From contig NZ_CAMVPN010000003.1 of the NCBI RefSeq assembly GCF_947169325.1, positions 1 through 64,000 of the forward strand: a DNA stretch of 64,000 bases. Reading direction: 5' to 3'. Shown piece by piece: positions 36,135-58,655 of the stretch. The DNA is from an uncultured Methanobrevibacter sp. (GTDB lineage Archaea; Methanobacteriota; Methanobacteria; Methanobacteriales; Methanobacteriaceae). The position numbers were made by a program, and so were the translations under genes. The notes under the pieces are model-generated. The model did no database searches, was not told where the DNA came from, and worked only from the letters and a program-made list of their open reading frames with translations. How positions within the stretch are numbered: the stretch's first letter is position 1; each line of letters opens with the position of its first letter.

Positions 36135-36200
36135 TGGGATTATTCCCACCCAATTAATTTTTTACGATACTTTTTTTAATACCTTTTACTAAATATTAAT

Positions 36201-36226
36201 AGGTATTGTGGCTTTTTGACCACTTA
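36201..36226 (+). promoter_or_regulatory. Conserved leader element shared with position 58064
   Basis: A 26-bp element containing GTGG-CTTTTTGA-CCAC lies 32 bp before the DUF366 start. The same element with one substitution occurs at 58064-58089 before a 24-codon ORF. Both are in presumed 5' leaders. An operator or a short RNA hairpin are equally possible. Confidence 0.5.
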
Positions 36227-36257
36227 TTTTTTTACAACATTAACGTTAGGTTTTATC

Positions 36258-36851
36258 ATGACTATTACTCATAAGCATATCGATGAAATTTTTGAATATG
36301 ATGGAAGCCAGATTAATCCGTCCTGGGCATTTCAGGAGTTTGGAATTTACGGATCATCCGTCATAACATGGATTGGGCCGGTCAACATCACTCCGGATAA
36401 TTTAAAGGACTTTGCAGATGTGGGTCTTGAAATCAAGTCAAACAATATGGTCAATTTCATCTGCGAATTCTTTGACCAGCAGCCTCCGAACATGAGAATC
36501 GCCTATTTAAGGCAAAGGCTTCTTGTGATGATTTTCAGGGAAATACTCACAGAATATGGAGTCAAATCAGAAAGGGAAGGGGATGACATATTCGTTAATG
36601 GGGGAAAACTCTCAATTTCCATTGCTTCTGTCTCATTGAGCTCTGCAAAAATACATTTCGCCCTCAATCTTGAGGATAAGGGAACTCCTGGGGATGTTGA
36701 AACAATAGGATTATTCGATATCAGAGTTAATGATAAACAGATATTTACGAATGACAATTTATTGGAACTAATCAATAAAACTGTTGAAAGGTTCATTGAT
36801 GAACTGGAAACAATAGAAAAGGATATAAGTAAAACAAAGGTGTTATTATGA
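36258..36851 (+). CDS. DUF366 family protein in a preQ0/archaeosine cluster
   Basis: About 197-residue DUF366 (COG2029) protein, first gene of a three-gene unit with queD and queE and overlapping queD by 4 bp. Its constant association with deazaguanine genes suggests a role in preQ0 or archaeosine synthesis, but no reaction is known. The track begins at 36216; ATG 36258 follows GTTAGG and is preferred. No cofactor motif is visible. Confidence 0.75.
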
Positions 36852-51753: not shown

Positions 51754-54700
51754 CTATCTGATTTTAATTTTAACAGTTTTGGTTACTTTGTTGTAGTAAG
51801 AGCCGCCGTTATATTTAATAACTGCTTTGAAAGTTCCTTTTTTAGTTAATTTGGTAATTTTAAATGTTGCCTTGCCTTTGCTGTTGGTTTTGGTAGTGTA
51901 TGTTTTACCTTTAACTTTTAAGGTAACTTTTGCTTTTTTCATTGCTTTGTTTTTGCTGTTTTTCAAGGTTATTGTGTATTTTTTGGTTTTTGTTGTTCTT
52001 TTGAATGTTTTTGCTTTAGCAGTCATTTTTGTTTTTTCCTTATTTATGGTAATCTTAACAGTTTTACTAACAGGTGAGTAATTTTCACTGTTGATTTTAA
52101 TAATAAGGTTTTTGGTACCTGCTTTAGCAGTTTTTAAGATGCTTGTAGTTAACTTTATTGAAGCGACTCCATTTTTGATGGTGGATGTTGCGATGTCTTT
52201 GCCGTTTAATGTAAATGTTACATTAACTCCATCAGTCACATTCACGAAATCAACATTGTATGTTCCACCATAGTTGATGACATACGCAGCATTTTTCGCA
52301 TTTATTGTAACATTTTTTAGATTTACGGTGAAATTAACAGGAATTTCAGCTCTTGTGATGTTATCGTCAATGTATGTAACATTGGCAGTGTTGGATCCAG
52401 CATCCAGGTTTGGAATAACAAGTTCTGCGATTCCTTCTTTTACCTCAGCGATATATTCGACATTATTGACTTTAACAGCCACTTTACCACTGTTCAATGG
52501 AGCTATGGCGCTGCTGTTTACCTGAACTTTAATGTTGATGTCATCGCCGTAGGTAACATCTTCAGCTTCAAGAATCTCCAGGCTTATTGTATCGTTTACC
52601 AATGGTTTATCACTTGAAACGTTGTTTAAGGTTAATCTGGCATCTTCATCAACGAATATGCAGTTTTCACCGTTGCCGATGAATTCGGAATCGCTGATGA
52701 TCATATCGCTCTCGGTTTCAATTGCTCCGCCGGATTCTATTGCGGTGTTGTTTTCCAGTAAAGTATTTTTTATTGTTAATGCTTCATAATTATAGATTGC
52801 TCCACCATATTTTGCATTGTTGTCTGTAAATTGGGAGTCTGTTATAGTTGTTTCACCGTCATTGTCCACTGCTCCACCATTTTCTTTTGCAGTGTTGCTT
52901 GCAAATTTGGAGAGTGTTATTGTCATGTCACTTTCAAAGTTGTAGACTGCTCCACCATTGTACTCGGCGGTGTTTTGTGTGAAGTTGGCGTTTGTTATTT
53001 CAATTTCACCATTATCAGTATTGATTGCTCCACCGAATCTTGCGGTGTTCTGTGTGAAGTTGGCGTTTGTTATTTCAATTTCACCATTATCAGTATTGAT
53101 TGCTCCACCGTATCTTGCGGTGTTTTGTGTGAAGCCTGTGTCTGTTACGGTTGTTTTTCCATAATCGTTATAGATTGCTCCGCCCAGTCTTGATGCAGTG
53201 TTGTTTGCAAATTGGCTATTTTCAATATTTGCTTCACCTCTGTCATTATCGATTGCTCCACCATATGCGGCATTGTTGTTTTCCAGTCTGCAATTATCCA
53301 TATCAAGGTAATATCTGTTTTCGATTGCCCCGCCGTATCTTGCGCTGTTTAGGGTGAAGTTGGTGTTTGTTATCTCCATTTCACCGTTGTCATTGTTGAT
53401 TGCTCCACCATATTCCTTTGCAGTGTTGTTTGCAAATTGGGAGTCTTTTATATTTATTTCATTGTCATAATGACTGATGACTCCACCATATTTTGCGCTG
53501 TTGTTTGCAAATAAAGAGTTAAAAATTTCCATATTTCCTGTGTTGTAGATTACTCCACCGTTGTAGTCCGCAGCATTGCATGTGAACTCGTCATCTGTTA
53601 GGGTTAGGCTGCCTCCTTCATTACGGATTACTCCTCCATATTTTGCAGTGTTTTGTGCAAAATGGGTGTTTGCTATATAGATGCTAACAACTTCCCCATT
53701 ATAGATTGCTCCTCCTTCGAATGCCCTGTTTTGTGCAAAGCTGGAGTTGTCTATATCTAATTGGGACACATCAGCATAGATGGCCCCTCCGGTCGGAGCA
53801 TTGTTTTGTGTAAATGAAGTATTCACAACACTTGCAATACTAGTTTTAACATATAGTGCACCGCCTTTTTCACTTGCTGTATTGTTTGTGAAATTACAGT
53901 TGATAACAGCCAGATTATTGTTTGTATAAATTGCTCCACCATTTTCAGCGTGATTGTTCTTGAATGAAACTTCTTCAATAATGCCATCGCCGCCGGCAGC
54001 TATTGCACCGCCGTTAATTGCAGAATTGTCAATAAATTCCACATTGAATATTATGTTTTCAAAGCCTTCAAAGAAATTAACTCCTCCGCCTGTAGGAGCA
54101 TTATTGTTGATGAAATTGCCGTTGAAGGTTATGTTGTGAGGAGTTTGTCTGTAGTTTATGCCCCCACCATTTAACGCTGCAGTATTGTTTATAAAATCAC
54201 ATGTGAATGTGCTATTTGTTGACACATCCTTGAATGTTATTGCCCCACCGTTTCCAACAGAGGCATCAACTTTTCCTAAAGCGCTGTTGTTTGTGAAATA
54301 ACAGGTAAAGTTATTGTTATTGGTGGTATTGTAGAAAAATATTGCCCCTCCACATGATTTGGCAACATTGAATGTGAAGTTTGAGTCGAATTTATTGTCA
54401 TTTGCCTTTTTGTAAAAAAAGATTGCACCGCCGTAGAGTGCGTAATTGTTTGTGAAAATGCTTTCAAAACTATTGTTTTCAGCCAAACTGTTGAAAAATA
54501 TTGCTCCTCCACTGGCTTTTCTTGCACTATTATTATAAAAGTCGGCAGAAATTATGTTATTGGAAGATTTAGCTTGGAAGCATAATGCTCCACCAGTTCT
54601 TTCAGTCGCATTACCTTCAAAATAGCCGGCAATTATTACACTATCAGTTTCATTGTTAAAGAATATTGCACCACCTCGGACAGCACAGTTATTAATAAAA

Positions 54701-56019
54701 ATGGAGTTGATTTCACAATTTGAAATATTGCCATCAGTTCCTTGCCAGTAAATCGCACCTCCATCGGATTCTGCTGTATTGCTGGAGAATTTACAGATAG
54801 TTACTTTCCCAGCAGTTCCTTGCCAGTAGACTGCACCGCCATCGGATTCTGCTGTATTGTTGGTAAAGTGAGAGTCGTTAACTGTTCCATTAAATGCATT
54901 CCAGTAGACTGCACCACCATTGTCTGCTTGGTTATTGGCGAAGCTAGAGTTGTTTGTTATTCCATTATATGCATACCAGTATATTGCACCACCATTGTCT
55001 GCTTGGTTGTTAGTGAAATTACAATTGGTTAGTGTACTATTACTTCCTTCCCAATAGACTGCACCACCATTATCTGCCTGATTGTTCATGAAATTACAGT
55101 TGTTTGCTAATCCATGTCTTTTTTGCCAGCTGATTGCACCACCATTGGACCCTGTGTTGTTTATGAACTCGGAGCTGTTCACGATTCCATTTTCTCCTTC
55201 CCAATAGACTGCACCACCGTCGTTTCCATTATTTTTAATGAAACTGCTATTATTTACAGAACCCTCAAGAGCATTGAGGTCCCAGAAAAGTGCACCACCA
55301 TTAATTGAGGTGTTATTTGCAAAATTGGAGTTGTTAATTGTTCCATTATATGCATTCCAGTAAACTGCGCCCCCTCTTTGTGATCCTTGGTTGTTGATGA
55401 AGTTACAGTTGTTTATTGTTCCATTAGCAGAATTTGAATCCCATTGGACTGCACCGCCACTAAATTTTGTTGCGGTGTTGTTTATGAAATTGGAGTCGTT
55501 TATTGTTCCATTAACTCCGCACCAGAAGACTGCACCTCCCCTTAGTTTTGCATAGTTGTTGGTGAAGTTACAGTTGTTTATTGTTCCATTAGCTCCATAC
55601 CAGCAGATTGCACCGCCATTATCAGTAGCATTACCATTTATGAAGTTAATATTTTTTAATGTAACGGTGTTTGCCGTAATATTGAATATTCTTGCAAGTC
55701 CTGCTCCATTGATTGTGTGTCCTTGTCCGTCAACATTAAAATTGGCCTTGTCAATCACGATTCCAGTTGTATAATTGGAATCCTTTTCAGGATTATAAGT
55801 GTAATCTTTTGTTAATTGTATTGTGCTTGTTGTTGAGTTGGTAATTTCTGCATTTAAAGTTGAAAAATCGCTAATCTCATTTTCGCCATTGGATATTTCT
55901 TCAGTATTTATGTCGGTTTGCGCTACTATTTCATCAGATGCATTATCTGCTGCACTTATGCAAGATAAACTGATTAAAGCAAATAAAATCATCGCAGCTA
56001 TTATGACTTTATGTTTAAT
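51754..56019 (-). CDS. Giant adhesin-like beta-helix surface protein
   Basis: About 1421 residues. The chain is a beta-helix of some 35 repeats of about 23-25 residues in three styles: GGAVYW..NGTINNSNF (about 90-430), GGAIFF..NxF (430-680) and GGAIYNDNGE-ITN (680-1060), followed by lysine-rich Ig-like repeats. Extracellular binding to other microbes or surfaces is inferred. The track starts at ATG 55992, which gives a signal peptide lacking basic residues; an ATT codon at 56019 lies six bases after GGAGGG and yields KHKVIIAAMILFALISLSC, a complete signal. Initiation at ATT is therefore suspected. Confidence 0.85.
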   Translation of the reverse strand: MKHKVIIAAMILFALISLSCISAADNASDEIVAQTDINTEEISNGENEISDFSTLNAEITNSTTSTIQLTKDYTYNPEKDSNYTTGIVIDKANFNVDGQGHTINGAGLARIFNITANTVTLKNINFINGNATDNGGAICWYGANGTINNCNFTNNYAKLRGGAVFWCGVNGTINDSNFINNTATKFSGGAVQWDSNSANGTINNCNFINNQGSQRGGAVYWNAYNGTINNSNFANNTSINGGALFWDLNALEGSVNNSSFIKNNGNDGGAVYWEGENGIVNSSEFINNTGSNGGAISWQKRHGLANNCNFMNNQADNGGAVYWEGSNSTLTNCNFTNNQADNGGAIYWYAYNGITNNSSFANNQADNGGAVYWNAFNGTVNDSHFTNNTAESDGGAVYWQGTAGKVTICKFSSNTAESDGGAIYWQGTDGNISNCEINSIFINNCAVRGGAIFFNNETDSVIIAGYFEGNATERTGGALCFQAKSSNNIISADFYNNSARKASGGAIFFNSLAENNSFESIFTNNYALYGGAIFFYKKANDNKFDSNFTFNVAKSCGGAIFFYNTTNNNNFTCYFTNNSALGKVDASVGNGGAITFKDVSTNSTFTCDFINNTAALNGGGINYRQTPHNITFNGNFINNNAPTGGGVNFFEGFENIIFNVEFIDNSAINGGAIAAGGDGIIEEVSFKNNHAENGGAIYTNNNLAVINCNFTNNTASEKGGALYVKTSIASVVNTSFTQNNAPTGGAIYADVSQLDIDNSSFAQNRAFEGGAIYNGEVVSIYIANTHFAQNTAKYGGVIRNEGGSLTLTDDEFTCNAADYNGGVIYNTGNMEIFNSLFANNSAKYGGVISHYDNEINIKDSQFANNTAKEYGGAINNDNGEMEITNTNFTLNSARYGGAIENRYYLDMDNCRLENNNAAYGGAIDNDRGEANIENSQFANNTASRLGGAIYNDYGKTTVTDTGFTQNTARYGGAINTDNGEIEITNANFTQNTARFGGAINTDNGEIEITNANFTQNTAEYNGGAVYNFESDMTITLSKFASNTAKENGGAVDNDGETTITDSQFTDNNAKYGGAIYNYEALTIKNTLLENNTAIESGGAIETESDMIISDSEFIGNGENCIFVDEDARLTLNNVSSDKPLVNDTISLEILEAEDVTYGDDINIKVQVNSSAIAPLNSGKVAVKVNNVEYIAEVKEGIAELVIPNLDAGSNTANVTYIDDNITRAEIPVNFTVNLKNVTINAKNAAYVINYGGTYNVDFVNVTDGVNVTFTLNGKDIATSTIKNGVASIKLTTSILKTAKAGTKNLIIKINSENYSPVSKTVKITINKEKTKMTAKAKTFKRTTKTKKYTITLKNSKNKAMKKAKVTLKVKGKTYTTKTNSKGKATFKITKLTKKGTFKAVIKYNGGSYYNKVTKTVKIKIR
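52967..53116 (-). repeat. 75-bp near-perfect tandem duplication within the adhesin gene
   Basis: Two consecutive 75-bp units (52967-53041, 53042-53116) differ at only two or three positions and encode the repeat TDNGEIEITNANFTQNTAR. The divergence of other repeats shows that this duplication is recent. Confidence 0.9.
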
Positions 56020-57907: not shown

Positions 57908-58063
57908 GCAATAATTTATTCATTTTATTTCTAATAAGTATTTTTAATTTAAGGTAAATTTTACAGATTTGATGCAATTTTCTAATTCTATACAATATAA
58001 CATGTTAAAATTGAATTTACAGATTAAAATTCTAGTTATTTTATATGTTAAGTAGTTTAATAA

Positions 58064-58089
58064 AGGTATTGTGGGTTTTTGACCACTTA
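58064..58089 (+). promoter_or_regulatory. Conserved leader element, second copy
   Basis: 25 of 26 bases match the element at 36201-36226, including GTGG and CCAC arms around TTTTTGA. It lies 37 bp before the ATG of a 24-codon ORF and about 25 bp past a TATA-like TTTTATAT (58038). Confidence 0.5.
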
Positions 58090-58125
58090 GGTTTAAAATA
58101 TCTTAATTCAACACAGGTGATTTTA

Positions 58126-58200
58126 ATGAAAAAGGATTGGAAAATGTTTTTAGAAGTAACTTTAGAAATCGTTAAAATCATTGTTATGATTTTAAAATAA
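58126..58200 (+). CDS. Predicted 24-residue hydrophobic small protein
   Basis: ATG 58126 has AGGTGA six bases upstream. The product is a short basic N-terminus (MKKDWKMF) and an amphipathic-to-hydrophobic helix rich in Ile, Val and Leu ending VMILK, resembling single-helix membrane peptides and type I toxins in form only. Too short for the ORF track. It precedes two tandem RNA or micropeptide units. Confidence 0.5.
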   Translation: MKKDWKMFLEVTLEIVKIIVMILK

Positions 58201-58309
58201 CTGATTTTTAGGGCGGTATTTAGTTGTTGAATGTAAAGGAAAGAGTTTTGGTATTTTCTCTCTAGTGGGGTTCTTACCACAATTATGCTCAGAGGAGATG
58301 TAAATAAAA

Positions 58310-58420
58310 TTTATATATGTGCTGTAATAAATAGTAATTTGTGAGAAAATCTCATGTGTTGAATTAAATTAATGGGGTTAGAATCATGTATTCTAGCTCT
58401 ATTCCTTTAAACTTGTTTTA
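58310..58420 (+). ncRNA. Tandem unit 1: promoter plus small RNA or 12-codon ORF
   Basis: TATA TTTATATAT (58310-58318) is followed at about 25 bp by a GAGA-AAA-TCTC hairpin, then ATG 58372 with an ORF MGLESCILALFL ending TAA 58410. The same DNA forms an AGAAT/ATTCT hairpin. The unit is repeated 170 bp downstream. Peptide and RNA readings cannot be separated by eye; no ribosome binding site precedes the ATG. Confidence 0.5.
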
Positions 58421-58480
58421 ATTTCATTTTATATTCTTATTATATGTATTTTTCATTGAAAATTATTAGTTGGTTAACGT

Positions 58481-58592
58481 TTATATATCTCTTGGGAGAT
58501 ATATTACTTTGAGATTTAATCTCGTGAATTGTATTGAATTAATGGGGTTAGAATCATTGATTCTAGCTCTATTTCTTTAAAATCTTTTTTTT
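58481..58592 (+). ncRNA. Tandem unit 2: promoter plus small RNA or 12-codon ORF
   Basis: TTTATATAT lies in a perfect palindrome ATATATCTC-TTGG-GAGATATAT (58483-58504), an operator candidate over the TATA box. Then come GAGAT-TTA-ATCTC, ATG 58542 with MGLESLILALFL and TAA 58580, an AGAATC/GATTCT hairpin inside the ORF and a run of eight T at 58585-58592. About 85-nt transcript predicted. Differs from unit 1 mainly outside the core. Confidence 0.5.
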
Positions 58593-58655
58593 AATAAATT
58601 TTCAATTATCTTGTTTTCAAAGTATTTTTAGGATGAAGTTTAAATTATAAATTGT

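Follow-up and report, generated by a model that had tools for sequence, protein, structure and literature searches.

A cluster of short repeats and small open reading frames beside the nop5 gene of an uncultured Methanobrevibacter species raises the question of which of its parts encodes a peptide and whether the repeated units act on it. The whole stretch of 64,000 nucleotides that was analysed is called the window here; positions refer to the window and, where nothing else is said, to its plus strand. A repeat search delineated two units of 115 nt each (58305-58419 and 58475-58589), which are 77% identical, start 170 nt apart and each comprise a TATA-like box and two hairpins, the first small and the second larger. 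Hairpin 1 is formed by TGAGA/TCTCA (58342-58354) in unit 1 and by GAGATT/AATCTC (around 58511-58523) in unit 2. A run of eight T (58585-58592) closes unit 2, and the T-run of unit 1 is weak (CTTGTTTT). A preliminary description, made from the letters alone, had listed the tandem units with their 170 nt spacing, the TATA-like boxes, the GAGA/TCTC-type hairpins and the T8 after the second unit, together with a 12-codon ORF in each unit (MGLESCILALFL in unit 1, MGLESLILALFL in unit 2) and an upstream 24-codon ORF with a ribosome binding site, and all of these can be read in the sequence. Its proposal of tandem small RNAs or a hydrophobic-peptide locus of the type I toxin form came close, but it set the two parts as alternatives and placed the peptide in the 12-codon ORFs.

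These 12-codon ORFs coincide with hairpin 2, the larger hairpin of the units, the MGLESCILALFL ORF being hairpin 2 of unit 1. In most of 29 loci, an ATG is absent at hairpin 2 or the ORF has a different length, and the hairpin persists. The similar 12-residue readings in both units of the window would favour two functional hydrophobic peptides, but with the ATG or the length lost in most homologs and the hairpin kept, this reading is refuted by the comparison and we give it hardly any credence. Judged from the homologs, the 12-codon ORFs are not conserved genes but the 3′ hairpin of the small RNAs, and the conserved peptide is that of the 24-codon ORF upstream. The preliminary description had counted homologs that keep neither hairpin nor ORF as evidence against its reading; the relatives keep both the hairpins and the 24-codon ORF.

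This ORF (MKKDWKMFLEVTLEIVKIIVMILK, 58126-58200) is preceded by the SD sequence AGGTGA (58115-58120) and is a candidate for a membrane-active toxin peptide, with profile matches in two genera. In the 14 loci first compared it has exactly 24 codons without exception and starts with ATG, TTG or GTG; pN/pS is 0.54 in frame versus 0.70 and 1.84 in the other two frames. Nine of the ten pairs within the nearest group of the window give a pN/pS of 0.19 to 0.59, and the remaining pair gives 0.92; variation is lowest at codon position 2. Comparison of the loci marks the 24-codon ORF as protein-coding and under purifying selection. The C-terminal half of the peptide is strongly hydrophobic, and in most loci a lysine is found at or beside the end. 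In the second genus, the peptide occurs in forms of 24-25 residues and of 39 residues. With 24-25 or 39 residues, the peptides have the form of type I toxins (below 60 residues, hydrophobic, usually cationic-ended), a class of small peptides whose antitoxins may be cis- or trans-encoded (PMC8309996). Neither the peptide nor the RNA elements matched entries of Pfam, NCBIfam, PADLOC or Rfam. In the 39-residue peptides of loci L143, L144, L145 and L152, a DILKYS-type segment is present twice, which suggests an internal duplication; other extended 39-residue forms are encoded at L136 and L154.

Altogether, 30 homologous loci were collected from 24 genomes of two Methanobrevibacter-type genera. DNA and peptide searches, with reading of the loci, placed the element in 13 genomes of the window's genus (the window's included) at several genomic positions, for example with nop5 and a coiled-coil gene as its neighbours, or with argB and the gene of an acyl-CoA synthetase. 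The genome searches used a pattern and the shorter covariance models R2 and R3. By the pattern search a second locus of genome G021 was obtained, the second genus was reached by a covariance model of the 3′ element (see below) and peptide profiles, and the G064 locus was added by the final model search. Three loci are present in G085, which we take to be M. ruminantium M1, a rumen methanogen that is in culture and fully sequenced; they lie near 873.4, 990.7 and 996.8 kb of its chromosome. Profile and model searches gave no match in G007, presumably M. smithii; viral contigs contained no match to the element, and other copies in the window's own genome are short chance matches only.

Several matches were set aside. 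The pattern matches L084, L085, L088, L092 and L094 (Bacteroidota, Chitinophagales, Cyanobacteria) were left out as presumed chance hits; by a rough estimate, a few matches of this kind are expected by chance. A peptide match in G000 (contig C36) was rejected since none of the other elements occur there, and weak peptide matches in G092 (contig C266) and G082 were likewise rejected for lack of the element. L153 (G092, contig C235) was left out as well: its ORF is hydrophobic, but an mRNA element could not be recognized convincingly. Its short ORF (MKFDSHDFVYIFIELLKIILSFFI) follows a purine-rich GGGGG run, and L153 is a possible decayed or divergent member of the family. In G021, L083 and L114 (contigs C134 and C47) are contig ends overlapping inside one locus and apparently represent a single locus split by assembly.

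The peptide mRNA presumably starts from a TATA-type promoter (TTTATATGTT, 58040-58049), a TATA-like box that in most loci lies 26-32 nt upstream of a conserved element, the presumed 5′ end of the transcript (58070-58092). Downstream of the ORF, a conserved 3′UTR element (GTTGAATGYAAAGG...AGTGG...CCACA, 58226-58281) was recognized in three alignments (A1-A3) and by covariance-model matches. Across the loci, the first approximately 20 nt of the mRNA pair with the end of this element. In the window, TGTGG (58070-58074) pairs with CCACA (58277-58281) and CCACT (58083-58087) with AGTGG (58264-58268). The pairs include UGUAGG/CCUACA, UGUGG/CCACA (window), UGAAGG/CCUUCA and GGAGG/CCUCC; further pairs are CCACU/AGUGG, CCUCU/AGAGG, GCCACCU/AGGUGGC and CUUGCC/GGCAAG, and GAAAGC/GCUUUC was read by eye in G064. 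Cognate ends beat permuted ends (0 of 100,000 permutations overall, 0 and 1 of 100,000 within the two genera), and the comparison shows the 5′ and 3′ ends of the predicted mRNA to co-vary as a long-range helix. For the window's genus, a pseudoknot of the 3′ element (AAUGC:GCAUU together with GAG:CUC, AAG:CUU or GGG:CCC) is plausible. A T-run that could serve as terminator was not found behind the peptide mRNA.

Two other parts of the window may be mentioned here. The 5′ end of the peptide mRNA recurs once, as a solo copy (GGTATTGTGGCTTTTTGACCACTTA; 31 nt, 91%) at 36196-36228, followed by T7 and upstream of an ORF of about 200 aa starting at 36260. Its GTGG/CCAC could form a local hairpin, and the copy may represent a remnant or else a leader element that is shared. 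The minus strand (51754-55992) encodes a 1412-residue secreted-type, adhesin-like repeat protein with many GGA-containing repeats.

A link between the units and the peptide is given by an inverted repeat, which is absent from the preliminary description and was seen in the repeat search: positions 58346-58367 of unit 1 are complementary at 20 of 22 positions (91%) to 58103-58124, the leader region around the SD sequence of the peptide ORF. With this complementarity, the question became whether the units regulate the 24-codon ORF. In 300 dinucleotide shuffles of leader and unit, the best 22-nt match reached a maximum of 18 of 22 positions. The predicted antisense RNA of unit 1 (58342-58407), with its TATA-like box TTTATATATG at 58310-58319, consists of hairpin 1, the overlapping antisense stretch and hairpin 2 (58371-58407), and its duplex with its own leader (-22.1 kcal/mol) is the best among 14 leaders.

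In every locus, a small RNA-like unit lies 3′ of the peptide ORF on the same strand. Its usual order is TATA-like box, hairpin 1, a linker that varies, hairpin 2 and a T-rich end, and in most loci the TATA-like box precedes hairpin 1 by about 30 nt. Linker and leader both vary between loci, yet match each other within a locus. Exact cognate matches comprise 13-14 nt in G037, G040 and G020, 17 nt in one locus of M. ruminantium M1 (G085b) and 15 nt in G097; in G092 and G099 a 14-nt exact match includes the SD. Over 30 loci, the cognate duplexes have a mean of -26.6 kcal/mol, compared with -14.0 (SD 0.73) upon random re-pairing, and none of 200,000 permutations was as low. Of the 30 small RNAs, 26 pair best with their own leader, and 25 of the 30 leaders pair best with their own small RNA. 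The outcome is the same in 16 non-redundant loci, and the longest Watson-Crick run has a mean length of 11.3 nt in cognates and of 6.6 nt otherwise. The three M. ruminantium M1 paralogs prefer their own partner (-21.1, -28.4 and -28.6 versus -10.6 to -16.3), as does each paralog in the two-locus genomes G089, G096 and G098; in one of the two G021 loci, the own leader takes rank 10 and is not the preferred one. The pairing is centred on positions -22 to -7 and in most loci extends across the start codon; at least three of the four SD bases are paired in 22 of 29. Random 62-mers drawn from the same locus reach -23.9 kcal/mol with the leaders at the 5th percentile, a value that only 60% of the cognates beat, and the ensemble is therefore more convincing than any single locus. 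As the comparison shows, cognate RNA-RNA complementarity is kept through sequence change. The units are thus predicted to be antisense RNAs, and antisense control of the peptide is strongly supported.

Unit 2 (58480-58592) has its TATA-like box (TTTATATATC) at 58480, followed by hairpin 1 (58510-58524), a linker, hairpin 2 (58541-58577) and the T8, but its duplex with the leader of the locus reaches only -12.8 kcal/mol, which corresponds to background. Inspection by eye shows a linker similar to the one in G037, a sister locus. Unit 2 is best read as a likely orphan or old-specificity antitoxin that lost, or never had, a match to the leader. An extra antitoxin-like unit without a match to its own leader is also present in G018 (L016/L045), here upstream of the peptide promoter; good pairing of this unit with leaders of other species was computed. 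In G024, G047 and G005, antitoxin-type hairpins are kept and the peptide is absent, and in G035, G043 and G011 the nop5 site is empty. Among the loci found, every intact peptide locus is accompanied by a downstream unit. Such one-way loss fits a toxin-antitoxin module, for which it is no proof.

In our opinion, the locus is quite probably a type I toxin-antitoxin-like module, and the peptide is likely its toxin. From the TATA promoter, an mRNA of about 210 nt would be made for a 24-residue hydrophobic, lysine-capped, putatively helical peptide, which probably acts on the membrane. As with the hok and aapA mRNAs, pairing between its two ends likely makes this mRNA compact, stable or a poor template for translation. 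A separate small RNA, built of hairpin 1, antisense stretch, hairpin 2 and T-run behind its own TATA box, would be produced just downstream from the same strand and pair with the leader over the ribosome-binding site and often as far as the start codon, whereby translation may be blocked. Two separate transcripts, the translation block, membrane activity and toxicity are what we infer.

The separate small RNA has to be weighed against one long transcript, in which the 'small RNA' would be the 3′ part of the mRNA, masking the ribosome-binding site in cis until released by processing. The layout allows such a transcript with intramolecular pairing, as the strand is the same, the spacing short and a strong T-run lacking after the 3′ element of the mRNA. 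The TATA-like boxes in front of hairpin 1 in most loci, together with extra units unmatched to their own leader (unit 2 of the window, the upstream unit of G018), speak against it, and we regard a single transcript as quite unlikely. Chance similarity among functionless AT-rich repeats and ORFs has practically no probability left: weak complementarity is indeed common in random windows because the region is AT-rich, but the permutation tests, purifying selection and conservation in two genera already refute it. A type III system (repeat RNA and RNase) was rejected as no nuclease gene lies beside the RNA units.

The toxicity of the peptide is a question of its own. All of the RNA evidence would be equally compatible with a small membrane protein that is not toxic, acts as a regulator or subunit partner and has its expression adjusted by the antisense RNA, and type I peptides and small membrane proteins are alike in sequence. 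However, patchy presence, variable genomic position, several loci per genome and toxin-less hairpin remnants fit toxin-antitoxin modules better than housekeeping regulators, and we therefore consider a non-toxic protein unlikely.

In type I systems such as tisB/istR and zor/orz, the antitoxin RNA is encoded beside, not overlapping, the toxin gene, complementarity to the leader is partial, and orz RNAs can be duplicated. Those genes are divergent, whereas the present ones are tandem and co-directional. With hok/sok and aapA/isoA of Bacteria, the locus shares a short hydrophobic peptide, an antisense RNA against the toxin mRNA and 5′-3′ pairing of the mRNA; full-length hok and aapA3 mRNAs are silenced by a 5′-3′ long-distance interaction (PMC6733600). 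In contrast to them, where the antitoxin is encoded on the opposite strand and overlaps the mRNA, a separate same-strand unit lies downstream here, the promoters are archaeal TATA promoters, and no sequence relation was found. The defining complementarity of a type I antitoxin RNA to the toxin mRNA was computed for cognate pairs in 30 loci; the antitoxin units lie downstream on the same strand in all loci and not on the opposite strand. The type I search of TADB 3.0 considers opposite strands only and toxins of 30-500 aa, which is a search rule and not a defining feature, and would therefore miss the present layout and size. CreTA, an RNA addiction module of haloarchaea in which the RNA toxin CreT is transcriptionally repressed by CreA with Cascade (PMC8501985, PMC9458426), is likewise RNA-based and archaeal. 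It differs in that here a peptide coding sequence is conserved and the RNA is predicted to pair with the leader and ribosome-binding site of an mRNA, so that a toxin made of RNA and a CRISPR-like guide as antitoxin do not describe the present locus. In Methanosarcina mazei, the small RNA sRNA162 binds an mRNA 5′UTR, possibly over a small ORF (PMC3510493), but it regulates metabolism genes, lies opposite its cis target and is not described as part of a toxin-antitoxin system.

According to a 2025 paper on a cyanobacterial case, all earlier type I systems came from Proteobacteria, Firmicutes and Tenericutes (PMC12390103), and an archaeal one was not found in the open-licence papers searched. On balance we favour the view that the loci form the first archaeal type I toxin-antitoxin family, with a same-strand tandem antitoxin RNA, a specificity re-invented in nearly every lineage, and duplicated units that serve as orphan or old-specificity antitoxins and by way of which the specificity changes. 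Since three copies reside in the cultured, fully sequenced M. ruminantium M1, the question is testable at once. The family also provides clean natural data on how RNA-RNA specificity co-evolves, and its peptides may become a lead against methane-producing archaea.
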